Shown here one piece after another: positions 35,148-51,247 of a stretch of DNA of 51,247 nt. The notes under the pieces are model-generated. The model saw only the letters and a list, made by a program, of their open reading frames with translations. It made no database searches and was not told the origin of the DNA. This stretch comes from Pelistega sp. (GTDB lineage: Bacteria; Pseudomonadota; Gammaproteobacteria; Burkholderiales; Burkholderiaceae_B), in NCBI GenBank assembly GCA_030538255.1, contig JAUNUI010000003.1:1-51247 (forward strand), given 5' to 3'. The translations under genes were made by a program, and so were the position numbers. How positions within the stretch are numbered: the first letter of the stretch is position 1; each line of letters begins with the position of its first letter.

Positions 35148-35614
35148 ATGCCAAACGCTTTAGGCCAGAATTTAAACAGCAAGCTGTAAGCTATGTCTTA
35201 GCCAATAGCGATCAATCGATAGCGGCCTTAGCGAAACAGTTAGGGATAGGCGAATCCACCTGGGACCGTTGGGTGCGTCAACAGCATGGCGGTACCAGTA
35301 AGCGCCCCTTATTGACAGAACAAGAGAGAATTAGCCTCTTAGAGAAAGAAGTATTGGCGCTCAAACAGGCCAATGAAATCTTAAAAAAGGCGCACGTGTA
35401 CTTTATCAAAAATCCAAGTCCTAAGGTACACGTTTATTATGGAGAACTTGGAACATTATCCGCTAGCACTGTTGCTAAGCGTCTTGTTCGTAAGCCGCTC
35501 GTGTTTTTACGCCTGGCGTCAACGTGCCGTGAGATCCTCAGCTTTACAACAAGCGGTACGTCAGGAATTTATGAAACATCGCTCACGTGCAGGTGCGCCT
35601 ACGATTGTTCATGA
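35148..35614 (+). pseudogene. IS3-family transposase OrfA, frameshifted
   Basis: Encodes the DNA-binding helix-turn-helix subunit: FKQQAVSYVLANSDQS, LAKQLGIGESTWDRWVRQQ and a leucine-zipper helix LLEKEVLALKQANEILKKAH. The ATG at 35148, with AGGAG upstream, reads into a stop after 13 codons. The conserved start M-P-K-R-F-R-P-E-F requires one more base in the A-run just after the start codon (CCAAACGC instead of CCAAAACGC). So OrfA is broken by a one-base deletion at about 35153, unless this is a sequencing error. The AAAAAAG slippery heptamer typical of IS3 elements is present at 35383-35389. Confidence 0.75.
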
Positions 35615-36290
35615 TGTTCAAGCGCAAGGGTTTAAGGTCTCTGAACGTACCGTAGGACGTTGCTTACAGCGACAAAATTTACGCTGTAAGATTGCACGTA
35701 AGTTCAAGGTGACCACCGATTCAGATCATCGCTTACCCGTTGTTCCTAATCATCTAAACCGTCAATTTACGGTGAGCCAACCGAATAAAGTATGGGTGAC
35801 TGACATTACGTATATTTATACGCAAGAAGGTTGGCTCTATCTCTGCGTGATGTTAGATCTATTTAGTCGCCGTATTGTTGGCTGGTCAACCAGCACACGA
35901 ATTGATCGCCATTTAGTCTGCAATAGTTTACGTACCGCTATGCTCGTGCAGGGCAATCCCAAAGGTGTGTTGATTCACTCAGACCGAGGGAGTCAGTACT
36001 GCAGCGCAGATTTTAGAGGTTTAGTGCTGCGTTATGGAGCAACACAAAGCATGAGTCGTCGTGGCAATTGCTGGGATAATGCGGTGGCAGAAAGCTTTTT
36101 CCATACATTAAAAGGACACATTATTCACGGAGAGAAATATCGCACAAGAGAGCAACTTCAGCACACACTATTTGAATACCTTGAGGTTTACTACAACCGA
36201 ATCCGACGTCACTCAGCCAATGGCTGGCTCAGTCCGATTCAATTTGAACACCATTATTATGTTGCTTTAGAGGAACAGACTGTCTGTTAA
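35439..36290 (+). CDS. IS3-family transposase OrfB (DDE integrase)
   Basis: Catalytic subunit of 283 residues with the rve-type RNase H fold. The HTH_21 segment spans about residues 35-90 (HRSRAGAPTIVHDVQAQGF). The DDE triad is seen in WVTDITYIYT, LIHSDRGSQY and NCWDNAVAESFFHTLK, and the C-terminal YYNRIRRHSANGWLSPIQFE is typical. All catalytic residues are intact. It lies in the +1 frame relative to OrfA, whereas programmed -1 slippage would be expected for an OrfAB fusion. A second indel in the overlap is therefore likely, or OrfB starts at its own ATG. Confidence 0.9.
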   Translation: MENLEHYPLALLLSVLFVSRSCFYAWRQRAVRSSALQQAVRQEFMKHRSRAGAPTIVHDVQAQGFKVSERTVGRCLQRQNLRCKIARKFKVTTDSDHRLPVVPNHLNRQFTVSQPNKVWVTDITYIYTQEGWLYLCVMLDLFSRRIVGWSTSTRIDRHLVCNSLRTAMLVQGNPKGVLIHSDRGSQYCSADFRGLVLRYGATQSMSRRGNCWDNAVAESFFHTLKGHIIHGEKYRTREQLQHTLFEYLEVYYNRIRRHSANGWLSPIQFEHHYYVALEEQTVC

Positions 36291-36304
36291 TTTGGCTAGG
36301 ATCA

Positions 36305-36474
36305 ACGTTCCCGTTTTTGATGAGGATGCAGGGTATTGGTACTTTAAAAAGGATGATTTTTCTTTCCGTTTTCCACAAACTGATGAAATACAGGAGACAG
36401 AAAGAGTAGATTCATGTCTTTATCATGTTGTCGAAGGGCATAAATGGTATTTAAACGCACCATATGGTGTTTAG
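36305..36474 (+). pseudogene. 3' fragment of a small gene truncated by the IS
   Basis: An open frame enters from the IS end and continues as NVPVFDEDAGYWYFKKDDFS, then EIQETERVDSCLYHVVEGHKW, and stops at 36474. The composition looks coding, with aromatic and acidic residues, but no start codon lies outside the IS. I do not recognise the family. The 5' end may be the short frame just left of the IS (35038-35078). Confidence 0.5.
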
Positions 36475-36515
36475 GGTAGTTTTTTTGAGTCAATTAGCTA
36501 TGCTGCAATTGTCTA

Positions 36516-36544
36516 GTCGATAAATAGAGCGAATAGTTTATAAT
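36516..36544 (+). promoter_or_regulatory. Putative promoter of the ATPase–nuclease operon
   Basis: A perfect -10 hexamer TATAAT lies at 36539-36544, 29 bp before the ATG at 36574. The -35 at 17-bp spacing (GTCGAT, 36516-36521) is weak. This leaves a short leader of about 22 bases and a promoter separate from the IS and the truncated gene. Confidence 0.55.
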
Positions 36545-36573
36545 ACTTGCAAGCGAAAATTGGAATCTTTACC

Positions 36574-37851
36574 ATGAAATTAATCCTTAAAAATATCGGC
36601 ATGCTCAAAGAGGCAGAAGTCTCTTTGGATCCACTGTGCTTGATTGCAGGGGTGAACGATAATGGTAAAAGCACCATTGGTAAGGTTGTTTTTTGTATTA
36701 TTAAGGCAATCAATCGATATAAAGAAGATTTGAAAGTTTCTAAAGATCATGAAATCAAGAAACTCATTGCCGATGCATATTTCGAGTTGCGCCCATTAAC
36801 TGAGGATAGGGATACTTCTTTTTCATGGTTTGACTTTCGCATAATATTGATGAACGATAATGAGCTTAAAGACTCAGTACCTATTTTTCGTCAATTTCTA
36901 CTAAAGTTAAAAGAGATTCCTGCTTTAGATAAGTCGGTACTTAATATCATTCAGGATATTGAATCGCGCTTAAAACTTTTGCTAGAACAGCCTGAAGATA
37001 CCAAGCGCTTTATTGAGAATGCCTTTACGCGTGTATTTGCTGCTGAGTTTGATTCTCAAGTCCTTTTATCAGGCGCTCAAGGTGGGTTTATTCAAGTTTG
37101 GGAGAATGATCTTCAACTAATTAATTTGAATATCGATAGGAATAATAAAGTCACGTTGAATGGAGAAATTGAACCTATCGTTATACGTGATGCCACTTTC
37201 ATTGAAACTCCGTTAATACTCAATTTCCACGATTTATTAATAAGTAGTCAGACTCAGTTAGAGTTGCATAATGTTCGTGCGCTCGGTATACCCTATACAA
37301 CCTTACATACTAAAGACTTATTCGATAAGCTAAGAGTTCCTGTTTTACCAAGTGAATCTCGTAATGAAGAGTTGCTTAGCCAGATTAGAACTATTGTGGA
37401 TGGTGATCTTCAGTACGATAAGTCGCAAAGCAACTTTGTGTTCAAGCGTGCTAGTGAAAATATCTCTATTAAGAACACGGCAAGTGGTATCAAGGTTTTT
37501 GGCTTATTACAGATTTTATTAGCGAATGAATTTATTACTAAAAATACGCTAGTAGTTTTCGATGAGCCTGAGAATCATCTGCATCCTAAGTGGCAGTTAA
37601 AGCTTGCAGAGGTGTTGGTTGAGTTGGTCAGCCAGGGCGTCTACATTATTGTGTCCTCACATAGTCCGTACATGATTGAGGCCTTAGAACGTTACTCTGC
37701 TCTTAAGGGGCTTGAGGGCTCATGTTCTTTTTATCTTGCAGAAAACAATAAAGTAGAAAATAAGAGTCAGCTACCTGAGATTTTTGCGTTGCTCTCAGAA
37801 CCATTTGATGAGTTTCGTCAATTAGATGCTAAGGTTTTGCACGATGAATAA
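36574..37851 (+). CDS. AAA/ABC-type ATPase, first gene of a candidate two-gene defence system
   Basis: A 425-residue ATP-binding protein of the AAA_15/AAA_21 (OLD/RecF-like) group. The N-terminus MKLILKNIGMLKEAEVSLDP is the typical first strands, followed by the Walker A motif GVNDNGKST (26-34). A long insertion (about 50-290) replaces the coiled-coil region. The signature-like NTASGIK, Walker B LVVFDEPENHLHP (Asp330-Glu331) and H-loop SSHSPYMIE (His363) follow. There is no C-terminal TOPRIM domain as in OLD or GajA. The frame opens at 36547 but the ATG at 36574 is the family start. The 3' end overlaps the nuclease-like gene by 8 bp, a strong sign of a functional pair. Similar ATPases drive PARIS, Septu, AbiL and Gabija. 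Confidence 0.85.
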   Translation: MKLILKNIGMLKEAEVSLDPLCLIAGVNDNGKSTIGKVVFCIIKAINRYKEDLKVSKDHEIKKLIADAYFELRPLTEDRDTSFSWFDFRIILMNDNELKDSVPIFRQFLLKLKEIPALDKSVLNIIQDIESRLKLLLEQPEDTKRFIENAFTRVFAAEFDSQVLLSGAQGGFIQVWENDLQLINLNIDRNNKVTLNGEIEPIVIRDATFIETPLILNFHDLLISSQTQLELHNVRALGIPYTTLHTKDLFDKLRVPVLPSESRNEELLSQIRTIVDGDLQYDKSQSNFVFKRASENISIKNTASGIKVFGLLQILLANEFITKNTLVVFDEPENHLHPKWQLKLAEVLVELVSQGVYIIVSSHSPYMIEALERYSALKGLEGSCSFYLAENNKVENKSQLPEIFALLSEPFDEFRQLDAKVLHDE

Positions 37852-38374
37852 ACATCGTCTAGATAACTTTTTGGCACGGGAGTTGAGTGCGTACCAATCA
37901 ACTTTTAAAGACACCAGTTTTGATAGTGTTAATAAAGTATATGTCTGTACCGATGTTCAGGTAAAACAAGTTTACGATTTTGATGCCTATATTCAAGCGA
38001 AGTTTGGTAAAAATGCGATTATGCCAGCTTCACCTGATGCGATATATGTGGGAGCTAAGCGTTTGTATTTTGTTGAGTTCAAAAATCAAATTTGGTCTAA
38101 AGTTGATAAGCAGCAAATTGCGCAAAAGTTTCGTGATGGTACGAGTGCTCTCAAATCCTTATTAGCTGACTTTACACCTAGGGATTGTAAGTTTGTCTTT
38201 TGCGTTGTGCATAAAAAGGAAACATCAAGTAGAGCTTATTGGCGTGGTGTTGAGGCAGGAGCAGAACGCTTTAACTTTGATGCGCTTAATAAAGAATTAG
38301 ATGAGTTTTATGACGATATCATTGTTCGAGATGTAGATTTTTATCGGCAAAATTTTAATGAGTTATCGTGTTGA
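37844..38374 (+). CDS. Putative PD-(D/E)xK nuclease-like partner of the ATPase
   Basis: A 176-residue cytosolic protein that starts inside the last codons of the ATPase gene (ATG at 37844, 8-bp overlap). The core SPDAIYVGAKRLYFVEFKNQ has Asp65 in an S-P-D strand, then a hairpin and Glu78-Phe-Lys80, which is the PD-(D/E)xK nuclease pattern. The following helix VDKQQIAQKFRDGTSALKSL fits the alpha helix after the active-site strand in this fold. I know no named family with exactly this protein. The overlap with an ATPase suggests an ATP-gated DNA or RNA nuclease effector. It could instead be an inactive regulatory or substrate-binding domain. Confidence 0.68.
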   Translation: MNKHRLDNFLARELSAYQSTFKDTSFDSVNKVYVCTDVQVKQVYDFDAYIQAKFGKNAIMPASPDAIYVGAKRLYFVEFKNQIWSKVDKQQIAQKFRDGTSALKSLLADFTPRDCKFVFCVVHKKETSSRAYWRGVEAGAERFNFDALNKELDEFYDDIIVRDVDFYRQNFNELSC

Positions 38375-39700: not shown

Positions 39701-39850
39701 TTGTTCCTTGTACGCACAGAGATAAACCGCCGTCAGTCTCTTTATTTAAGTCGGACATAGCATGTTCCCTGTATCCACAGGGATAAACCGTTCTGAAATT
39801 GCACCAGTACCTACGCCAGCAGATGCTCACTGTTTGGCAGGGATTATCCA
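39701..39850 (+). CRISPR. Orphan degenerate CRISPR repeats at the 3' end of cas3
   Basis: Two repeats match the 29-bp repeat of the array at 51036. Copy 1 (39701-39729) has four mismatches and copy 2 (39762-39790) has one, with a 32-base spacer. A third, much more degenerate copy starts at exactly the next 61-bp step (39823-39850): TGCTCACTG..., then CAGGGAT, with one base missing. It overlaps the cas3 stop codon. Repeat orientation is plus, opposite to cas3. No leader-like A+T-rich stretch with an IHF site is evident. It looks like the relic of a second array. Confidence 0.8.
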
Positions 39851-42582
39851 CACTTATAAACACCCTTAGTCGCATCATAACCGTATGGCTGGTTTTCCCG
39901 AACAAGCCAGGGACGAACAAATTTGAGGTGTTTGTATTGTTGTTGGATTTTCTCCCACACAGGATTCAAATGCGCAGGCAACTCGTAGAGCTCTGCCACT
40001 TCTTTACGCTCTGGCATTTTCAGTATACTCAGTTGTGGGTTGTCACTCTCACGTGAATACCAGAAACTTAAATCATCTTCACTATTATTTTTGAGCAAAA
40101 TTACTTGTGAATATCTGATTTCACTGAGCCGCGTACTGATTTCCACATCATCCTCATACCAACTTGTATTACTACGATAGCTATAGGCATAGTTTTTCCA
40201 GTCCAATGCACTACTTTGCGCTACAGCCTCAGCAGCAACAACTTGACCCGTATACTCAAGCTCTTTATGCTTAAAGCTCTCAGGGATATTTGATAATGCT
40301 GACTCGCTATACACCGATTCGATCAAAAGCCTTGCATGATCAGGCAGACGCACAACCCCCAACTCGCGTAAGACCTTTTGCCCAAGCCACAAGCGAGCTG
40401 GGCTTTTATATACCAACTCTGTATTTCTATGCTTTGCGATTAACCAATCGGGTGAGGGTTCATCTGACCATCTCGGTGCGTAAACCCAGAGTTGAGCCAG
40501 ACCGCGCTCATCTTCCACTAAATCTCTGCAATAAACGCCTGCTTTATTTCGCACGTGACGATGCAGGCGACCAGCTCGCTGAATTAAGTCATCAATTGGG
40601 CAAAGGTCAGAAATCATGACATCCACGTCAACATCCAAGCTCTCTTGAAAAACTTGAGTGGCAATCACTACCGTATTTTTTCTGTTATCAGAGCTACATT
40701 TACCCAAACGTTCAAGAACCTGAGCCTCAATCATTTGTCTGTCTTTTAATACAAAGCGACTATGAAATAAGATTATCTTCAAGTCTTTGTAATGCATTAA
40801 CGCTAAAGCAAGTTGCTCATATGCGAATACGGCGTCATCAACCGAGTTTCTAACCCAAACAACACTTTTACCTTCCTGGACTGAGTCAACTATTTTGTGA
40901 ATAATTTGCTCTTCATCATGTAAGAAATTGACCTCGAATTGCTTCTGGGAGCGAGCACTAATTGGAGTTTCGTCTACAAGAGGCAAATAGGAGCCATCAG
41001 AAACATTGGACGACTTAACAGCAACTTTTGTTGCCAACGGAAATGAATAGTTTTCGACAAACACTGGAGATTTTTGGATGGATTTAAGCCATGAATTTAT
41101 TAAGCGTTGCCTTTGATGAATTGCCAAAGTTGCTGTTAACAAAACAACTGATCCACCTGCGTGAAAATGCAGCTGTAGCAGGCTGTCCAATAGCTCAAAC
41201 ATATATGCATCGGCCGCGTGAACCTCATCTATCACAAGCACCTTACCTAATAAACCAAATAGTCGAACTGATTGATGTCTTCTAGGAAGTACCGCTAGCA
41301 ATGCCTGATCAATAGTACCCACTCCAACAGGCGCTAGTAGGGCCTTTCTGTTACTATCCGCTAACCATGCATTGCATTGTGCTGAGGCCGTAGTATCTTG
41401 TCTTTCATAATCACTATCAATATATGAGGAGTTTAGAATAGCCTCTTTAAATTTATCACTTAATTGTTTTGCGCTATGCGCTAAAACAATACTTGGCTTC
41501 CTTAAAGAAGTAGTATTAAGAATTTTTAAATAATGCTCTGAAACTCTTGTGAACATTGCATTTGACGTTGCCATAGTCGGCAAGCCAAAGTAAAACCCTT
41601 GTGCAGCCCCCGCTTGCATTAAGCGATGTACTAAAGTCAGTGCTGCCTCAGTTTTTCCTGCTCCTGTTAGATCTTCGAGAATAAACATCTGAGGACTGTT
41701 ATCTATAACTACGCTTTCAGCCCATTTTTGTAAAGGTGTGGGTTCAAAACCAAAAGTTTGCAGTACTCCCTCGAATGGCACTACCTCAAACTCATTGACG
41801 AAATCTCGTTCCGTCAAGATGCGTAAAGCCACGCCTTGTGAACGACGCCAATACTCCTGCAATGGCATTATGGTGGTTTTATATTTGAAGAAAGAAGCGT
41901 CTGAGCCTAGCCAATCCATCACCACAGCCCAACCTGCAATATACCAACTAGCTTGCTTAGCGCGCTGCTTAGCCTCTGCTCTTAGCAAGTACTCAAATGA
42001 TAGCTGTGGAGCAAATAAGTCAAATAAATCATCTATAAATGCATCAACGGCTTGCTCATCTGCATCGGTTAAATAATCTTTAAGATAATCAACACTCTCC
42101 GTATTGATTGGTTTACCGTGATGACCGAAGACAGCCTCTGCGATTAGCCCTAATATATCGCTAGCTTTGGCAAGGTCTCGGCTTTTTACCTCTGCAATAT
42201 TAATACCGCAAATTTTTGCTGTAATCTTTCTTTTTTGCTTTTGCCAAAAATAGAACCCTAATCTATCATGGCGAAACTCTTGAGCGTTATAGCTTTTTCT
42301 TGATTCTTCTTGGTACGTGAAAACACCAATAAGTCGTTGAAAAGCATTAGTAAACTTACCTAGATCATGTAGGATTAGGAAAAAAACCAATAACTTAATT
42401 GCTGCTTCTTCATCTATCTCAAGCAAAACTGACAAATCAGTTAAAAAACCTGGGCGCTTACGTAAATAAAGCTCTCCTACCGCACCAACATCCAAGCAGT
42501 GGTAAACTAGCAAATGAAAGTCTGACTCCCCAGGATTTGCATTGGGAGTTTTCCCCCAGTATTGATAATAGCTTTTAGTCAT
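39844..42582 (-). CDS. cas3: CRISPR-associated helicase/nuclease Cas3 (type I-E)
   Basis: Recruited by Cascade to target DNA, it nicks and then degrades it in 3'-5' direction. The 912 residues hold an N-terminal HD nuclease (HCLDVG, then HDLGKF with His72-Asp73, then FGHHGKP) and an SF2 helicase with Walker A LTGAGKTEAAL (306-311), DEVH box VLVIDEVHAADAY (Asp452) and motif VI DDLIQRAGRLHRH. All key residues are present and there is no frameshift, so it appears intact. It is unusual in being inverted relative to the Cascade operon and separated from it by a fic gene. A decayed copy of its 3' end remains upstream of cse1 (44560-44757). Degenerate CRISPR repeats touch its 3' end. Confidence 0.95.
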   Translation of the reverse strand: MTKSYYQYWGKTPNANPGESDFHLLVYHCLDVGAVGELYLRKRPGFLTDLSVLLEIDEEAAIKLLVFFLILHDLGKFTNAFQRLIGVFTYQEESRKSYNAQEFRHDRLGFYFWQKQKRKITAKICGINIAEVKSRDLAKASDILGLIAEAVFGHHGKPINTESVDYLKDYLTDADEQAVDAFIDDLFDLFAPQLSFEYLLRAEAKQRAKQASWYIAGWAVVMDWLGSDASFFKYKTTIMPLQEYWRRSQGVALRILTERDFVNEFEVVPFEGVLQTFGFEPTPLQKWAESVVIDNSPQMFILEDLTGAGKTEAALTLVHRLMQAGAAQGFYFGLPTMATSNAMFTRVSEHYLKILNTTSLRKPSIVLAHSAKQLSDKFKEAILNSSYIDSDYERQDTTASAQCNAWLADSNRKALLAPVGVGTIDQALLAVLPRRHQSVRLFGLLGKVLVIDEVHAADAYMFELLDSLLQLHFHAGGSVVLLTATLAIHQRQRLINSWLKSIQKSPVFVENYSFPLATKVAVKSSNVSDGSYLPLVDETPISARSQKQFEVNFLHDEEQIIHKIVDSVQEGKSVVWVRNSVDDAVFAYEQLALALMHYKDLKIILFHSRFVLKDRQMIEAQVLERLGKCSSDNRKNTVVIATQVFQESLDVDVDVMISDLCPIDDLIQRAGRLHRHVRNKAGVYCRDLVEDERGLAQLWVYAPRWSDEPSPDWLIAKHRNTELVYKSPARLWLGQKVLRELGVVRLPDHARLLIESVYSESALSNIPESFKHKELEYTGQVVAAEAVAQSSALDWKNYAYSYRSNTSWYEDDVEISTRLSEIRYSQVILLKNNSEDDLSFWYSRESDNPQLSILKMPERKEVAELYELPAHLNPVWEKIQQQYKHLKFVRPWLVRENQPYGYDATKGVYKCG

Positions 42583-42761: not shown

Positions 42762-44372
42762 TTACTTCACTGGACGGGCGGGGTCATAACGACTCAACAC
42801 ATTCAAGTCTATAGGCTCAACACCATCGAAAGCTGACTTTACCGCCTCAACAATCTCTGTCCATACACCAGTTTTGGAAAGAATGGGCATCTCTTTGGCT
42901 AATACATTACTCAGCTCACCACGATTTTGCTCGATAGAGCGCAAGACACGATCCGCTTGATGATCAGGCATCTCAACGATTTCTTTTAGTGCTTGACGTG
43001 CGCGGCTATGATTGCGCAAATAGCGAGACTGCTGGCTCATTTCCTCGCTCAAGGTTCGTTGAGTAATAGTTGAAAGATAAATAACATGCGCATCTAAATT
43101 TGGATAACGCCATACAGGACGTGCTTGCTCCTCTCCATTAAATACAAAATTTGAAACCACACCATCAGCGTACTTCGTCTGAGTAGACTCAAATGCTATA
43201 TGTTCGCGCACGCTCTGCATCAAGGGTTTTGAGATCTTATCTAAGACACGATCATAACTTCGCCTCTCTGCACTATCACTTGTAATAAGCGCCGATATTG
43301 GCAAAATAATTGGCTCGGGAATACATCCATCCCTACGCAAAATATCATTAATTAAAAAACGATGAATACGCCCATTACCATCAGCCATTGGGTGAATATA
43401 AACAAAGCCAAAGGCAACCACTGCACTTCGCATGAGGGAGGATTGCCCTTCAGTCCGCTCCAAGAAAACACGCAAGCCTTCAAGCATGCTCGAAACATCA
43501 CTGGCAGGTGGCGCAACATAATGCACAATATCTTGGTAATGTAATATTTCTCCCACAAAAACAGGGGATTGGCGTATGCCAAAGTGAGTAATTGTCGTGT
43601 TTTCTCCTAGAATTTCTCTTTGCAATTGTGCGAGCGAAGCATTGCTTAATGGAACATCATCGTTACCCGTACGCCTTGCCATCACATCAGCAAAGCGCTC
43701 TATTCGACTAGTGCGCTCAGACTCACCCTCAATAGCAAAACTAGCTTTACTTTCACGCAAAGTCATCCAGACCGCAGCACGCTGCAGTAACTCCTCACCA
43801 AACTCTTCAGTTAAACTTAAAAATAGAGCGGGGATATCTAAGTCCATGGCTTGCGAAACTTGCTCAGACTTAAAGATCATAGGACAAAAATCAGGATTGC
43901 CTGGTAAGTTATCATTGATGTGCCATCGAGATATTTTTACGACATGATTTACTGAAGCAGCGACTAATTTGCGACTATCTATTGCATCAATGTAGCGACC
44001 ACTTAAGCGAGCGGGCACATCAAGAACATCACCAGTTAACCATTCGTACAAGAAAGCAGCCTTACGAGCATACTGACCTGCGGGCGCGGAATTAACCCAC
44101 TCTTGAATAAAAGAAGATCCTGTTTTAGCAAAAAGACGAACAAGAAACTCGAAGTGTGGCACCTCATGACGCAAATGAAACTGTAAATGCGCAGAAGGCT
44201 CATTCGCTGGCCTCATTGATTCAGGATAACTTTCGATTCTCTTACTATCAAGAATTTGACTTACCCTACGAGCGCCGATCTGACTTAGCACAGGAAAATC
44301 AGCAAGCGGAAAAACCTGAAACGTAGCTGCTAGCCAAGCTGCGCCAATCGGATCAACGGGAAGTTCACTCAT
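42762..44372 (-). CDS. Fic-domain protein AMP-transferase, self-inhibited class
   Basis: Fic enzymes transfer AMP, and sometimes other nucleotide parts, to hydroxyl side chains of target proteins. The active loop HPMADGNGRIHR (327-338) matches H-x-F-x-D/E-G-N-G-R-x-x-R except Met for Phe. It keeps the catalytic His, the acidic metal ligand and both Arg. An inhibitory motif S/T-x-x-x-E-G is seen N-terminal to it as SFAIEG (211-216), placing it in the class that blocks its own ATP site with Glu215. At 536 residues it has extra N- and C-terminal helical parts; the C-terminal part may bind DNA. No antitoxin gene is adjacent. It sits between cas3 and the cas3 relic, so it arrived with, or after, the rearrangement. 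Confidence 0.88.
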   Translation of the reverse strand: MSELPVDPIGAAWLAATFQVFPLADFPVLSQIGARRVSQILDSKRIESYPESMRPANEPSAHLQFHLRHEVPHFEFLVRLFAKTGSSFIQEWVNSAPAGQYARKAAFLYEWLTGDVLDVPARLSGRYIDAIDSRKLVAASVNHVVKISRWHINDNLPGNPDFCPMIFKSEQVSQAMDLDIPALFLSLTEEFGEELLQRAAVWMTLRESKASFAIEGESERTSRIERFADVMARRTGNDDVPLSNASLAQLQREILGENTTITHFGIRQSPVFVGEILHYQDIVHYVAPPASDVSSMLEGLRVFLERTEGQSSLMRSAVVAFGFVYIHPMADGNGRIHRFLINDILRRDGCIPEPIILPISALITSDSAERRSYDRVLDKISKPLMQSVREHIAFESTQTKYADGVVSNFVFNGEEQARPVWRYPNLDAHVIYLSTITQRTLSEEMSQQSRYLRNHSRARQALKEIVEMPDHQADRVLRSIEQNRGELSNVLAKEMPILSKTGVWTEIVEAVKSAFDGVEPIDLNVLSRYDPARPVK

Positions 44373-44991: not shown

Positions 44992-45030
44992 GGTTCATAA
45001 GGTGATTGGTTTTGCAATAGGGTGAACACA

Positions 45031-46614
45031 ATGAATTTATTAGTAGACGACTTCTTTTTCTTCAGAAAAAAAGACGGTAGCTTTTTTAAAGGTAATTTTT
45101 TAGAAATCCTTAACCCAGAAGTTGTAGACTTTGCGATGCCACGCGAGGACTTTCAGGTTTCAGCATATGTCTTCACTATTGCTGTTTTGCAAACTGTTTT
45201 TGCACCTGAAGATCAGTATGAGTGGCAAGAGCGTTATGAGTTACAAGCTGATTCACTCGATCAGCTTACCCAGGAACTGTCAGCTGCGCTTCAACTAATA
45301 CAGCATGCTTTTAATGTGATTGGAGATGGCCCCTTATTTATGCAGGACTTTGACTTGTTGGAGCAGGCTAATGAGCAGAGTGTCTCGGCTCTATTGATTG
45401 AGTCGCCAGGGGAAAATACGATTAAAAATAATACCGACCACTTTGTTAAGCGTGGTACAGCTGAGTGTATTAGTATTGAACTGTTAATTTGGGCGTTATT
45501 TACGATGCAAAGTATGGCCCCTAGCGGAGGGGCGGGGCATCGAGTAAGCCTTAGGGGTGGTGGCCCATTAACGACAATTATTAAAACAGGCAATGAAGAC
45601 TCAACGTTATGGCAACAAGTCTGGCTTAACGTTATAAATCGAGAGCACTGGCAGTACCCAAAGCCTGACTTACAAAGCATATCGGTTTTTCCCTGGTTAG
45701 GACCAACCCTTGAAAGTAAAACGTCTAAGGTGGTATATGCCAAAGATGTCCACCCTCTGCATATGTATTGGGCGATGCCTAGACGCATCCGTTTGAATGA
45801 AAATCTAACGAAAGGTATATGCCAGGTTTCTGGCTATGAGTCGGAACATATTATTACGAGCTATCGAACACAAAATTATGGATATAACTATGGAGGAACC
45901 TGGTCTTTCCCTCTGACACCGTATAGGTGGAACCCTAAAAAACCTGACGAGGATAAGTTTTCTATTAAGGGTCAACTCGATGTGCACTATAACCAATGGC
46001 ATATGTTAAGTCATACGGATAGCGAAGAGGGTTACCAATGCGCTACAAATATTAGCCATTACTATAAATTACTTGAGAACTACGAAGAGCTAGTAAGGCG
46101 CCCAAGAATTTGGGCCTCTGGCTATTCGCTGGATAATATGAAGGCTAAGGGATGGTCTTCTGTATATCTCCCTTTGATGAAAATCTCAATGACTAAGCAA
46201 GACGACTATTTCGCCTCGATCACAGAAATGCATCGAGTAGCAAAAAATATAGTTTATTTGTGCCGTTCACATATTAAAGCTGCCTTAATTTCTGAACGTT
46301 CAAACATCAAGGGTGGTTTTGAATATGTAGATACGGTTTTTTGGCAACGAAGTCAAGGGACGTTTTTTGAATTAGCAACTCTTCTTCAGCATCAAGATAA
46401 TTATACGTTGACCAATGAACTTGCGTCGACTTGGTTTAATTATTTGAGGGCACTTGCCTTAGATCTTTATGACGAATACGCCTTCTCGGGTGATGTTGAA
46501 ACATCTCTTGTACTTCTTGAAAGCCGTTCAAAGGAGCGGCAAAAGCTTCAACGGGCTATTTATTCAAAAAATAAGCATTTTTTAATTGATTACAAACTTC
46601 TTGATAAGGCTTAA
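45031..46614 (+). CDS. casA: Cascade large subunit Cse1 (CasA/Cas8e)
   Basis: Large subunit of the type I-E surveillance complex. It reads the PAM and positions Cas3. The 527 residues start NLLVDDFFFFRKKDGSF and have the QDFDLL and GGAGHRVSLRGGGPLTTII segments, plus a C-terminal helical bundle, as in E. coli CasA. I prefer the ATG at 45031 because AGGGTG lies 7 bp upstream; a GTG at 45022 is in frame. First gene of the operon cse1-cse2-cas7e-cas5e-cas6e-cas1-cas2. The stop is 4 bp before cse2. Confidence 0.95.
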   Translation: MNLLVDDFFFFRKKDGSFFKGNFLEILNPEVVDFAMPREDFQVSAYVFTIAVLQTVFAPEDQYEWQERYELQADSLDQLTQELSAALQLIQHAFNVIGDGPLFMQDFDLLEQANEQSVSALLIESPGENTIKNNTDHFVKRGTAECISIELLIWALFTMQSMAPSGGAGHRVSLRGGGPLTTIIKTGNEDSTLWQQVWLNVINREHWQYPKPDLQSISVFPWLGPTLESKTSKVVYAKDVHPLHMYWAMPRRIRLNENLTKGICQVSGYESEHIITSYRTQNYGYNYGGTWSFPLTPYRWNPKKPDEDKFSIKGQLDVHYNQWHMLSHTDSEEGYQCATNISHYYKLLENYEELVRRPRIWASGYSLDNMKAKGWSSVYLPLMKISMTKQDDYFASITEMHRVAKNIVYLCRSHIKAALISERSNIKGGFEYVDTVFWQRSQGTFFELATLLQHQDNYTLTNELASTWFNYLRALALDLYDEYAFSGDVETSLVLLESRSKERQKLQRAIYSKNKHFLIDYKLLDKA

Positions 46615-46618
46615 TACT

Positions 46619-47194
46619 ATGTCGGTACAACAGAAAGAACAAGATTTGAAGGTGGTCTCAATTATTGAGCGTTGGTGGAAAAGTATGTTCTTATCGACCA
46701 TCGAGCTAGAAAAATTGAATATTTATCCTGCGCCAACTGTATTTAAAGCGCAATTAAGGCGATCCTCTACGTTGGAGGCTATTGTCATGACGGATGGGTT
46801 TAGATCGCTATGGTTTCAGTTGCCTCAGGAATGGAGAGAGCAATATGGTGAGACGCGTTTTGAACAAATTGCTCTACTTGCAGGTGCTTTAGTTTATATA
46901 AAACAAGATGTAGAGCAAGCAGTGGCAGAATTGGCTGGCCAAAAAGAAGCAGGTAAAGATAAATCTCCCGTAAGTCCTATGAGATTTAGCCAACTACTCG
47001 AAAGCCAAGACAATACAGAGTTCTTGAGGCGACTCAGAAGAGTGCTTGCCTTACTAGATGGAAAGGCTAATGTTCATCGATTAGTAAGTGATTTAAATAA
47101 GTGGTTTTTACAAAAAAACGTATTTAAAGATACACCATCGTCTAAACGCGTTGTAGTGAGGTGGGCGATGGATTATTACAAATTCTCAAATTAA
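46619..47194 (+). CDS. casB: Cascade small subunit Cse2 (CasB/Cas11e)
   Basis: Small helical subunit, two copies per Cascade, that stabilises the displaced DNA strand. The 191-residue protein has the family features: an early WWKSMF segment, a central LRRSSTLEAIVMTDGFRSLW, the MRFSQLLESQDNTEFLRRLRR motif and the C-terminal VVRWAMDYYKF. The frame opens upstream inside cse1, but the ATG at 46619, four bases after the cse1 stop, gives the normal length. Confidence 0.93.
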   Translation: MSVQQKEQDLKVVSIIERWWKSMFLSTIELEKLNIYPAPTVFKAQLRRSSTLEAIVMTDGFRSLWFQLPQEWREQYGETRFEQIALLAGALVYIKQDVEQAVAELAGQKEAGKDKSPVSPMRFSQLLESQDNTEFLRRLRRVLALLDGKANVHRLVSDLNKWFLQKNVFKDTPSSKRVVVRWAMDYYKFSN

Positions 47195-47219
47195 TTTTTA
47201 AAAATCAAAGGATATGAAA

Positions 47220-48260
47220 ATGACTAAATTTATTCAATTACATCTTTTAACCTCATACCCACCTTCAAACTTAAATCGCGATGACTTAGGTCGCCCTAAA
47301 ACAGCAAGATTCGGTGGTTTTGAGCGACTTCGAGTAAGTTCTCAAAGCTTAAAGCGCAGTTGGAGAACTTCTGACCTTTTTTTAGAAGCTTTAGATGGTG
47401 AGAAGAATGGGATTCGTACCAAGCGCTTTGGTGAAGAAATATATAAGTATCTAATTGAAGCGGGAGTTACAGAGAAAAAAGCACTTGAGTGGGCTATTCA
47501 GATTGCAGGTGTGTTTGGTAAGGTGTCCAAAGAGCATAAGTATCTACTAGAACAATTGGTACATATTAGCCAACATGAGCAAGAGTTAGCGTTTAACTTG
47601 GCTAAGAAGCTAATTGAGACTGGCAAAGGCCCGAGTGATGATGATCTTAAACTCCTTTCTAAAGAGCGAATGGATGTTGATATGGCATTATTTGGTCGAA
47701 TGCTAGCTTCAAGCCCTGCGCATAATATTGACGCTGCTTGTCAGGTTGCACATGCATTGAGTGTCGGCAGTGTAGTCATCGAAGATGATTACTTTACTGC
47801 TGTTGATGATTTGAATGATGGGACTGTAGACACAGGTTCAGCACACATTGGTGAGTTTGGTTTTGCCTCAGCTATTTTTTACTTATATATATGTATAGAT
47901 AAAGAGTTATTAGTCCAGAACTTGGGCGGTAATGAGGATTTAGTGGGTAAGGCTGTTGCTGCCATTATTGAAGCAGCGGCGAAAGTTGCACCAAGTGGCA
48001 AACAAAATAGTTTTGCTAGTAGAGCTTATGCAAGCTACGTAATGGTAGAAAAGGGAAGGCAACAACCGAGGACTTTGTCTTCAGCATTCCTAACGCCAAT
48101 TCAAGATAAAGACATGATGGGGAAAGCTATTTCAGCGTTAGAAGAGCAAATGGCTTCTTTTGATAAGGTCTATGGGTCTTGTGCAGACAGTCGTATATGC
48201 TTTGATGTGACAAAAGAAAAGGGATCTTTAAAAGAAGTTCTTAACTTTGTTAAGGAATAG
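47220..48260 (+). CDS. casC: Cascade backbone subunit Cas7e (CasC/Cse4)
   Basis: RAMP-fold protein, six copies of which coat the crRNA spacer. The 346 residues begin FIQLHLLTSYPPSNLNRDDLGRPKTARFGG and RLRVSSQSLKRSWR, strongly diagnostic. They also contain VDMALFGRMLASSP, DTGSAHIGEFGFASAIFY and a C-terminal region with ASYVMVEKGRQQPRTLSSAF. The ATG at 47220 has AAAGGA at normal spacing; the ATG at 47214 is too close to it. Nothing unusual is seen. Confidence 0.95.
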   Translation: MTKFIQLHLLTSYPPSNLNRDDLGRPKTARFGGFERLRVSSQSLKRSWRTSDLFLEALDGEKNGIRTKRFGEEIYKYLIEAGVTEKKALEWAIQIAGVFGKVSKEHKYLLEQLVHISQHEQELAFNLAKKLIETGKGPSDDDLKLLSKERMDVDMALFGRMLASSPAHNIDAACQVAHALSVGSVVIEDDYFTAVDDLNDGTVDTGSAHIGEFGFASAIFYLYICIDKELLVQNLGGNEDLVGKAVAAIIEAAAKVAPSGKQNSFASRAYASYVMVEKGRQQPRTLSSAFLTPIQDKDMMGKAISALEEQMASFDKVYGSCADSRICFDVTKEKGSLKEVLNFVKE

Positions 48261-48268
48261 GTGCATTT

Positions 48269-49000
48269 ATGCAAGACTATTTGGTTTTTAGGCTATATGG
48301 CGCATTAGCGAGTTGGGGGGTAGAGGCTGTTGGTGAATACAGAGCGACAGCCGCGTGTCCTACTCGTTCTGCTTTACTAGGGTTCTTAGCTGCTGCTTTA
48401 GGGATTGACCGTAATGACTTGAGAGCACAAGAACAGTTGTCGGATAGTGTGTTTTTTGGAATTAAACAATTAAATGAGACGCAACTTATCAGAGACTTTC
48501 ATACGACCCATGCGCCCACAGCAACAGCTAAGGCATTTTTGCCAACGCGACAAGCAGAGTTACGTCATCGGGCTGTAGCGACGATCCTCTCCCAGAGGGA
48601 TTATGTGTGTGAGGGTGTGTGGCATATTGCGGTTTGGAGTCAGAGTGCTACCTGCCCTTATACATTGAAGATGATCAAAAACGCTCTTATTAATCCTAAA
48701 TACACACTGTATTTAGGGCGTAAATCTTGCCCTTTGGGAGTTCCGTTAAGTCCTCAGTTGGTAACTGTTGCGAACTTAAAGGATGCTTTGGATATTGATT
48801 TTCCATCACTTGCTGTAAATGTGCCGAGGAGTTTTTTGTCTTCAGGCAAGTCCAATAAACACCATTATATTTGGGAAGGCGAGAAGGCAATTTTAGGAGT
48901 TGATGAAACTTTGATTATTACGCAACGGTCTAGGCATCAGCCCAATCCCTTGGTGGCTAGGCAGTTTATAGAAAATTTTACGTTTAGTTTCCGTTCTTAA
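48269..49000 (+). CDS. casD: Cascade subunit Cas5e (CasD)
   Basis: Binds the 5' handle of crRNA and caps the Cas7 backbone. The 243 residues show the Cas5 N-terminal RAMP strand YLVFRLYGALASWG, then EYRATAACPTRSALLGFLAAALGI, the HTTHAPTATAKAFLPTRQAEL stretch, and YTLYLGRKSCPLGVPLSP, typical of type I-E. It starts 8 bp after cas7e and is preceded by GGAATAGG. No defect is visible. Confidence 0.94.
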   Translation: MQDYLVFRLYGALASWGVEAVGEYRATAACPTRSALLGFLAAALGIDRNDLRAQEQLSDSVFFGIKQLNETQLIRDFHTTHAPTATAKAFLPTRQAELRHRAVATILSQRDYVCEGVWHIAVWSQSATCPYTLKMIKNALINPKYTLYLGRKSCPLGVPLSPQLVTVANLKDALDIDFPSLAVNVPRSFLSSGKSNKHHYIWEGEKAILGVDETLIITQRSRHQPNPLVARQFIENFTFSFRS

Positions 49001-49016
49001 CTATAGGAGATGGAAA

Positions 49017-49691
49017 ATGTACTTTTCAAAGATTCGTTTACCGTTTGACTTATCCTCAACGTACCATCGATATAAGTTGGAAAAAGATGGGTTTTATGCG
49101 GTTCATCAGCTATTGTGGCGCTTATTTGAAGGGAATGAAAATAGGCAGTTTCTTTTTCGTCAAGAGGAGATGGATGGTGGGATAGTTTTTTACTGTTTGT
49201 CCAAAGATATGCCACAGAACAAGACAGAAAATAAACTTCATTTGCAAACAAAGCTATTTTGCCCAAAATTAAACAAAGGTCAGAAACTATATTTTAATCT
49301 TCGAGCAAATCCCACTGTTTATATAACAAATGCGGATGGGAGAGGGCAGCGTCATGATGTTCTGATGCATGCAAAGTATAAAGCAAAGGAGCACTCAACT
49401 AACTCAGCGGAAATTGCAATGAATATGGAGCAAGCTGCCATAGCTTGGCTAAGTGATAAAAAACGTCTGCAACGTTGGGGAATTAGTTTAATAAATACCC
49501 CTGTGGTTTCTGCTTATAGACAGCAATCTAGTTTGAAAAAGAAATCCAAGCAACAGATCCGCTTCTCCTCAGTAGACTATGAAGGGATATTAGAAATTAA
49601 TGACCCGGAAATTTTTTTAGAGCAGTATTTTCAAGGATTTGGTGCAGCCAAGTCTTTTGGTTGCGGTTTGATGTTGTTGAAGGCAGCGTAA
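49017..49691 (+). CDS. casE: crRNA endoribonuclease Cas6e (CasE/Cse3)
   Basis: Cuts the pre-crRNA at the 3' base of each repeat hairpin and stays bound to it. The 224 residues start MYFSKIRLPFDLSSTYHRYK. The catalytic His lies in FYAVHQLLWRLF (His30, aligning with E. coli His20). The RLRANP-like strand reads YFNLRANPTVYI. The C-terminal glycine-rich loop GFGAAKSFGCGLMLL is intact. The hairpin in the locus's own repeats is a suitable substrate. The stop overlaps the cas1 start by one base. Confidence 0.94.
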   Translation: MYFSKIRLPFDLSSTYHRYKLEKDGFYAVHQLLWRLFEGNENRQFLFRQEEMDGGIVFYCLSKDMPQNKTENKLHLQTKLFCPKLNKGQKLYFNLRANPTVYITNADGRGQRHDVLMHAKYKAKEHSTNSAEIAMNMEQAAIAWLSDKKRLQRWGISLINTPVVSAYRQQSSLKKKSKQQIRFSSVDYEGILEINDPEIFLEQYFQGFGAAKSFGCGLMLLKAA

Positions 49692-50611
49692 TGGCTTTTA
49701 TACCTCTTAAACCCATTCCTATTAAAGATCGCAATTCAATGATTTTTATTGGAATGGGGCGGATAGATGTTCGTGATGGTGCTTTTGTTGTTATTGATGA
49801 AGTAAATGGTGAGCGCACGCATATTCCAGTAGGATCTGTTGTCTGTCTTATGCTAGAACCAGGAACAAGAGTGAGTCATGCAGCCGTGAAATTGGCTGCT
49901 CAAACAGGAACGTTATTAATATAGGTAGGAGAGGCTGGTGTGCGTTTGTATTCAGCTGGACAGCCAGGTGGCGCTCGCTCAGACAAATTGCTCTATCAAG
50001 CAAAGTTAGTACTGGACCCAGAAGCACGACTTAAAGTTGTCAGAAAAATGTTTTCTTTGCGCTTCAAGCAAGAAGCGCCAACTCGTAGAAGTATTGAGCA
50101 GTTGCGAGGTATAGAGGGTGCAAGAGTACGGGCTCAATATAAGGTACTAGCACAAAAAAATGGTTTGGATTGGCATGGTAGGCGTTATGATCCAAAAGAT
50201 TGGGAGGCTGGGGATCTTCTAAATCAGTGCATAAGTGCGGCGAATGCTTGCCTTTATGGTGTTACCGAAGCTGCCGTGTTAGCAGCAGGTTATGCACCTG
50301 CATTAGGCTTTTTATATTCTGGTAAGCCCTTGTCATTTGTTTATGATATTGCCGATATTTTAAAGTTTGATACTGTTATTCCAGTGGCATTTAGAATTGC
50401 AAAAGAGAGACCAAATCAGCCAGACCGACAGGTAAGAATTGCGTGCCGAGAGGTGTTTAGACAAAATCGATTGTTAAGGCGTTTAATCCCTTTAATGGAG
50501 GAGGTGCTGTCAGCAGGAGAGCTGGAATTACCTAAGATGCCAGATGATTCACAACCTATTGCTATTTCTGAACCTTTAAGCCTTGGAGATGATGGACATA
50601 GGTCTAAATGA
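49691..50611 (+). pseudogene. cas1: Cas1 integrase gene with in-frame amber codon and lost metal-ligand His
   Basis: Cas1 with Cas2 inserts new spacers. The full frame, 305 residues plus the interrupting codon, aligns end to end with E. coli Cas1 (IPIKDRNSMIFIG, HIPVGSVVCLMLEPGTRVSHAA, GRRYDPKDWEAGD, FVYDIADILKFD). Codon 78, a conserved Trp (TGG) in LLxWVGEAG, is TAG (49922-49924). The frame is otherwise continuous. A GTG at 49940 has AGGAGAGG at 49927-49934, so a C-terminal piece of 223 residues might be made separately; the break lies near the boundary of the N-terminal beta domain and the catalytic helical domain. In addition the metal-binding His (GFVHTGK in E. coli, His208) is Tyr here (TAT at 50315-50317). 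The active-site Glu and both Asp remain. Adaptation is probably lost. Confidence 0.9.
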
Positions 50612-50635: not shown

Positions 50636-50947
<312 letters not shown>

Positions 50948-51035
50948 TTGCTTTTTTGGCTCTTTAACAACTAGGAATATTGGTGAAGTTTTATGCTATT
51001 GGTTTTTGCATTAAAATCAATGGTTTATATTTAGT
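50948..51035 (+). promoter_or_regulatory. CRISPR leader with IHF-type site
   Basis: 88 bp, A+T-rich, between cas2 and the first repeat. AATCAATGGTTTA at 51015-51027 matches the IHF consensus WATCAANNNNTTR at every position and ends 8 bp before the first repeat. This is the place where IHF bends the E. coli leader for spacer integration. Transcription of the array should also start in or near this leader. Confidence 0.7.
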
Positions 51036-51247
51036 ATGTTCCCTGTATGCACAGGGATAAACCGCCGATGATGGATGTCGAAATAGTACGAATTGGATGT
51101 TCCCTGTATGCACAGGGATAAACCGTAAGATGGGTGGTTTTGGCTGTAGTCTGGCCAATGTTCCCTGTATGCACAGGGATAAACCGTATTTGATAAGCAA
51201 GTTCTTGTTTAATTCGTCATGTTCCCTGTATGCACAGGGATAAACCG
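51036..51247 (+). CRISPR. Type I-E CRISPR array (start; continues beyond the window)
   Basis: Four identical 29-bp repeats at 51036-51064, 51097-51125, 51158-51186 and 51219-51247, with three 32-bp spacers at a strict 61-bp period. The repeat begins ATGTTCCCTG and ends CAGGGATAAACCG, so it shares the GATAAACCG end of E. coli type I-E repeats. Its stem is CCCTG/CAGGG. Orientation is plus: the leader lies left and crRNA is read left to right. The window ends exactly at a repeat end, so total length is unknown. The spacers differ from one another, and I could not search for their sources. Confidence 0.97.

Follow-up and report, generated by a model that had tools for sequence, protein, structure and literature searches.

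The type I-E CRISPR system of Escherichia coli has a characteristic repeat length, a leader that adjoins cas2 and an IHF-type site within that leader. The 51,247-nucleotide stretch of Pelistega sp. DNA analysed here (the window) ends in a locus that has these features and the gene set in common with the E. coli system. It differs from that system in that cas3 is inverted, a Fic-domain ORF lies between cas3 and cse1, and Cas1 carries a TAG at position 77 and a tyrosine at position 208 of the E. coli enzyme (PDB 3nkd, 4p6i and 5ds5). In PMC4046053, alanine at E141, H208, D218 or D221 of E. coli Cas1 abolished nuclease activity. The same active-site position is lost in Pelistega, but through a natural tyrosine accompanied by a stop rather than an engineered alanine. 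A defective cas gene is also described for Salmonella in PMC7712790, where cas3 is degenerate and carries a premature stop. The Salmonella case likewise has one cas gene stopped early in an otherwise recognizable locus, whereas in Pelistega two lesions fall in the acquisition gene, beside open interference genes and a long, uniform array. Loss of acquisition is a known kind of decay. We consider it likely that inactivation of the sole cas1e has recently deprived the otherwise complete type I-E locus of Pelistega, which was probably acquired horizontally, of spacer acquisition.

At the end of the window, the locus is arranged in the order inverted cas3, Fic-domain ORF, cse1, cse2, cas7, cas5e, cas6e, cas1, cas2e, leader and array (Table 1). 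Every Cas protein but Cas1 is a single open frame that matches the expected family, in agreement with an initial annotation of this DNA that had described the interference genes as intact. The I-E set of cse1, cse2, cas7, cas5e, cas6e, cas3 and cas2e is all present, with cas3 recognized through its domain models; its full-length equivalog model scores below the cut-off (457 vs 569 bits). Adjoining the CRISPR locus at 35439-38374, we also observe an ORF for an integrase-core (rve) transposase and, after it, one for an AAA ATPase that weakly matches PtuA-like and other defence ATPases. Gene order and the composition of the family point to an Alcaligenaceae-like betaproteobacterium as the probable host, whereas DNA searches were uninformative in this respect.

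Table 1. Features of the Pelistega type I-E locus and of the two further CRISPR systems in the genome. Coordinates are window positions unless preceded by an L number.
Feature	Position	Strand	Remarks
Remnant mini-array	39701..39790	+	Two degenerate I-E repeats at the opposite side of the locus, next to the 3' end of cas3
cas3	39844..42582	-	Open frame in the orientation opposite to the operon; above cut-off for the HD and helicase domain models
Fic-domain ORF	42762-44372	-	536 aa; between inverted cas3 and cse1
cse1, cse2, cas7, cas5e, cas6e	45022..49691	+	Open frames, all above curated cut-offs
cas1e, whole frame	49691..50611	+	ATG overlaps the cas6e stop as TAATG
cas1e, N-terminal piece	49691..49924	+	Ends after 77 codons at the TAG, 49922-49924 (position 77 in E. 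coli)
Possible reinitiation site	49927..49942	+	SD-like AGGAGAGG at 49927-49934, GTG at 49940-49942
cas1e, C-terminal piece	49940..50611	+	223 aa; predicted helical C-domain fold
TAT (Tyr) codon	50315..50317	+	In place of the metal-binding His (H208 in E. coli)
cas2e	50651..50947	+	Open frame; 115 bits, cut-off 33
Leader	50948..51035	+	IHF-type site plus TTGGTgA and TTTAG motifs as in the leaders of relatives
First four I-E repeats	51036..51247	+	Array resumes past a 100-N gap; about 105 repeats in total
I-F system	L096 10501-18820 and L158 1040-7062		About 100 nearly identical repeats
III-B system	L097 7884-18513		On another contig; own Cas1, cmr1, cmr2, Csm6-type ring nuclease ORF

Both pieces of the cas1 frame match the Cas1e model TIGR03638, the N-terminal piece with 74 bits and the C-terminal piece with 259 bits (cut-off 216), and in the PDB alignments the two combined span nearly all of E. 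coli Cas1. It is by alignment to this enzyme that the TAG and the Tyr codon are assigned to positions 77 and 208. The single continuous reading frame of a functional Cas1e is broken by the TAG, and of the active-site residues E141, D218 and D221 are retained while H208 alone is replaced, by Tyr. With its frame disrupted and a catalytic residue lost where relatives are intact, cas1 has the marks of a pseudogene. Each of the lesions is explicable by a single-base change; the TAG and Tyr aside, the frame has no frameshift, a point that weighs against lost acquisition. A search of the genome for a second cas1e found none. The initial annotation was right to describe two independent lesions, and the positions it gave for the TAG, the TAT, AGGAGAGG and the GTG at 49940 are exact.

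To place these lesions among relatives, we used an alignment set of 84 sequences, composed of the best 80 of 338 relatives from a genome scan together with the top 4 of 8 matches from further genomes. The cas1 frame is uninterrupted in all 84. At the column of the TAG, 83 relatives have Trp and one distant relative has Ala, which bears out the claim of a stop at a conserved Trp77. At the column of the Tyr, all 84 have His, as do 16 of 16 further family loci (two from one genome), and the reported change of a metal-ligand His to Tyr is equally sound. Among 399 sampled genomes of the order, cas1e occurs at 37 places in 36 genomes (E up to 1e-20), and only the Pelistega gene has an internal stop; a cas1e match was sought in six other genomes of the genus and found in none of them. 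The literature matches listed contain nothing that points to the present locus or to a natural split Cas1e, nor any H208Y in a CRISPR context. Our view that acquisition has probably been lost draws on the stop at the Trp position, the Tyr at the His position and the lack of a second cas1e, that is, from the cas1 gene and not from the array.

The leader adjoins cas2 and contains AATCAATGGTTTA at 51015-51027, which we take to be its IHF-type site, and the array consists of 29-nt repeats and 32-nt spacers. A scaffold gap of 100 N (L095 649-748) lies inside the array, directly after 51247. The contig beyond the gap starts within spacer 3, with its final 26 bases, followed by a repeat, which makes an exact overlap of 55 bases, and a search for the 26-mer of spacer 3 elsewhere in the genome found no further copy. 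An overlap of this kind suggests that a short-read assembler broke the sequence at its k-mer length, and the gap may be empty or may conceal a variant of the array present in the culture. Merged across the gap, the array comprises 105 repeats and 104 spacers. Counted from the leader, 102 identical repeats are followed by two variants, one exact repeat and a degenerate palindromic end. The array repeats had been called identical; the window holds just the first 4 of about 105, and the first 102 are indeed identical. The end of the array, at 57598-57623 (L095 6999-7024), is a palindrome that combines a repeat half with its own inverted copy. One spacer is present twice among the 101 compared.

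The initial annotation had further taken the identical repeats as a mark of a frozen locus, an argument that we reject on the grounds that the arrays of relatives are often as uniform. At least 4 repeats are present at 78 of the 82 loci searched and at least 20 at 53 of them, with arrays reaching up to 158 repeats. Variants were counted over a 22-nt repeat core with three repeats at either end set aside, some arrays being cut by the end of the locus. On this count, 32 of the 53 long arrays, which lie beside an intact cas1, have no internal variant core, and internal variants make up 59 of 2719 repeats overall. Uniform long arrays are therefore common beside intact cas1 genes, and the identity of the repeats is no sign of freezing. 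Together with the leader motifs, the uniform repeats argue instead that acquisition was active until recently and that any loss is recent, and to this extent the earlier proposal of recent decay stands. The absence of any change in 99 repeats of 29 nt sets a neutral upper bound of about 0.1% per site, provided that the repeats have not been homogenised. A working system would, however, also show a fresh-looking array.

The 2.95-Mb genome has two more cas1 genes, one in a I-F and one in a III-B system. The I-F system, in which we see cas1, cas3f, csy1, csy2 and csy3, shares a contig with the I-E locus and lies 55 kb away from it. Its Cas1 is intact and 98 of its 100 repeat cores are identical, so that the host itself provides a uniform array next to an intact Cas1. 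In the III-B array, all 26 of 26 repeat cores are identical. Judged by eye on the translations, the Cas1 proteins of both systems retain the His.

The spacers revealed little about their targets. Searches of viral_contigs with 24-mers from the three leader-proximal spacers gave no match. The array past the gap gave 7 phage records (best E 0.04), which we did not take as significant, and 2 plasmid records in scattered pieces at 66-67% identity. The collections searched contain no convincing protospacer, except that one spacer resembles mltG of a sister species. This spacer, the 10th from the leader (51769-51800; L095 1170-1201), agrees with the mltG (YceG-like) gene of a species of the same genus in 28 of 32 positions, AGG lying to the 5' side, whereas the host's own mltG matches it at only 22 of 32 positions of the same site. 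It looks like a piece taken from the chromosome of a relative, and at up to 3 mismatches it has no further match in the host's own genome, on which ground self-targeting by this spacer is rejected. The other spacers were compared with stretches of the host's own genome and with eight related genomes. No relative was confirmed among viral contigs. One viral contig (IMG/VR; L120 5960-6286), whose ORF list and array end we examined, bears an array with an identical repeat sequence.

If one or both of the cas1 codons reflected an error of sequencing or assembly, or a mixed culture, cas1 would truly be intact in most cells. The leader, cas2 and the array all look active, as they would in such a case, and either lesion could be a matter of one base. 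The assembly is a draft, with its scaffold gap about 930 bases past the Tyr codon and contigs that share exactly 55 bases. Two separate errors in one gene are nevertheless hard to expect while the neighbouring cas frames are open, and both codons lie outside the repetitive array. We regard this explanation as unlikely.

A second alternative is that Cas1 is made in two pieces, in which case the N domain (77 residues) would end at the TAG, translation would restart at the GTG, and the C domain (223 residues) would join the N domain and Cas2 to form an integrase that tolerates the Tyr and works fully or in part. The putative signals are well positioned, with the SD-like AGGAGAGG 5 nt ahead of the GTG and the GTG 15 nt past the TAG, and the initial annotation had cited them as grounds for such a protein. 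Intact relatives, however, have an SD-like 5-mer at the same place in 27 of 84 cases, a GTG in 30 and both in 8. Since the conserved V-G-E-A-G-V codons yield an SD-like 5-mer and a GTG anyway, the signal is available by chance. It lends no clear support to an evolved start, as intact relatives have such a signal too.

The position of the break fits a two-piece protein. In a predicted model of the C-terminal piece (mean pLDDT 83.1), residues 1-11 are of low confidence and the chain is helical from residue 14, and the model superposes with a TMt of 0.97 on 3nke, the C domain of the E. coli protein crystallised by itself. As the piece is predicted to fold from residue 14, the break would fall in the linker, and the suggestion of a split near the domain boundary is upheld by the model. 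The cell could make the N piece as well as a C piece that folds by itself, which counts against lost acquisition, and the fresh array and the strong conservation of the N piece (0 of 37 near-invariant columns changed) would suit a two-piece enzyme as well. On the other hand, the stop is found in no relative, so no evolved arrangement is visible, and the missing metal-binding His is left unexplained. We find a two-piece integrase very unlikely. A natural two-chain Cas1 that arises by stop-restart translation with Tyr in place of His, and that either still builds or recently built the array of 100 spacers or regulates through non-catalytic binding of Cas2, is a highly doubtful proposition.

The two halves of Cas1 have diverged unevenly. 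For counts of near-invariant columns, we left out the distant relatives L008 and L009, so that 82 relatives remain; with both kept, 9 of 157 Cas1 columns are changed, stop included, and only those two exceed this number. In the C half, 121 columns are near-invariant and 8 of them are changed, including the Tyr, the highest count of 83 sequences, and the description of the rest of Cas1 as highly conserved accordingly holds for the unchanged N half but less well for the C half. Changes are also seen in Cse1 (6 of 37 columns, rank 4 of 64) and Cas2 (3 of 52, rank 3 of 82), while cas3, cse2, cas7, cas5 and cas6 each have 0 or 1 (cas3 1 of 82). The mean distance to relatives, divided by the relatives' own, is 1.39 for the C half (rank 2), 1.30 for Cas2 and 0.89 for the N half, compared with 0.95-1.08 for the interference proteins. 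In trees, the C half has a terminal branch 6.0 times as long as the median; the corresponding factors are 3.6 for Cas2 (rank 2 of 82), 3.5 for Cas7, 2.5 for Cas3 and 1.5 for the N half. Because several Cas branches are long, part of the divergence of the C half belongs to a long branch of the whole locus. Four-fold sites appear saturated in both halves, from which we conclude that the N half was kept by selection; recent recombination as the cause of its conservation is rejected for the same reason.

Such a pattern could also be produced by long-standing relaxed selection on the adaptation genes, with slow decay of the Cas1 C domain and Cas2. The changed columns of the C half and the long branches of the C half and Cas2 are in its favour, yet the branches of Cas7 and Cas3 are long as well, and the N half is unchanged, although the difference between the halves in changed columns is not significant (Fisher p 0.20). 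An open frame says little here: 83% of simulated neutral genes have at most one stop, and 2-26%, depending on the indel rate assumed, have at most one stop and no indel, so the absence of further stops or indels alone cannot reject neutral drift. Purely neutral drift to 8 changed C-half columns needs about 2.8% per site and predicts about 80 changes in 99 repeats, where none is seen, if the repeats have not been homogenised. The drift of the C half exceeds this clock, and most of its oddities should hence be older than the last acquisitions and compatible with function. On the array clock, the stop, and perhaps the Tyr too, are the latest of the Cas1 changes. Slow decay of this kind appears highly improbable to us.

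Leaky read-through or amber suppression, by which some full-length Cas1 would be made, is barely credible. The frame past the TAG is otherwise open and matches Cas1e, but among 45 ORFs treated as genes, a few of which lack a family identification, 10 terminate at TAG in the ordinary way, cas7 of the same operon among them. No CUA anticodon was found in 35 tRNA loci (a catalogue that is incomplete, with several expected tRNAs and the 16S missing from the assembly), and a full-length product would still be without the His. On this stop usage and the incomplete set of tRNAs, we reject genetic recoding.

In the reading that we prefer, lost acquisition through inactivation of cas1e, translation would halt after the N-terminal domain of Cas1, and, with an active site that lacks its metal-binding His, Cas1-Cas2 should integrate no new spacers. 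Either lesion would probably be sufficient, and the second could then have drifted in freely. The open genes suggest that crRNA processing by Cas6e and interference by Cascade-Cas3 should go on from about 104 spacers, although the changed columns of Cse1 make full interference itself uncertain. The summary of the initial annotation, that the locus can interfere and cannot adapt, is in this respect supported by the open interference genes and the doubly hit cas1, but loses the identical repeats as an argument for freezing. The separate I-F and III-B systems, which may still learn, would then be the only route by which the genome gains new spacers.

The Pelistega locus provides a clean natural example of a type I-E system that has kept about 104 memories and its interference genes while the enzyme that writes new ones bears two lesions, and it does so beside two CRISPR systems with Cas1 proteins of their own in one 2.95-Mb genome. 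It opens the question of whether loss of acquisition is selected when arrays are very long or when other systems still learn, and of how long a frozen array remains useful to its host.
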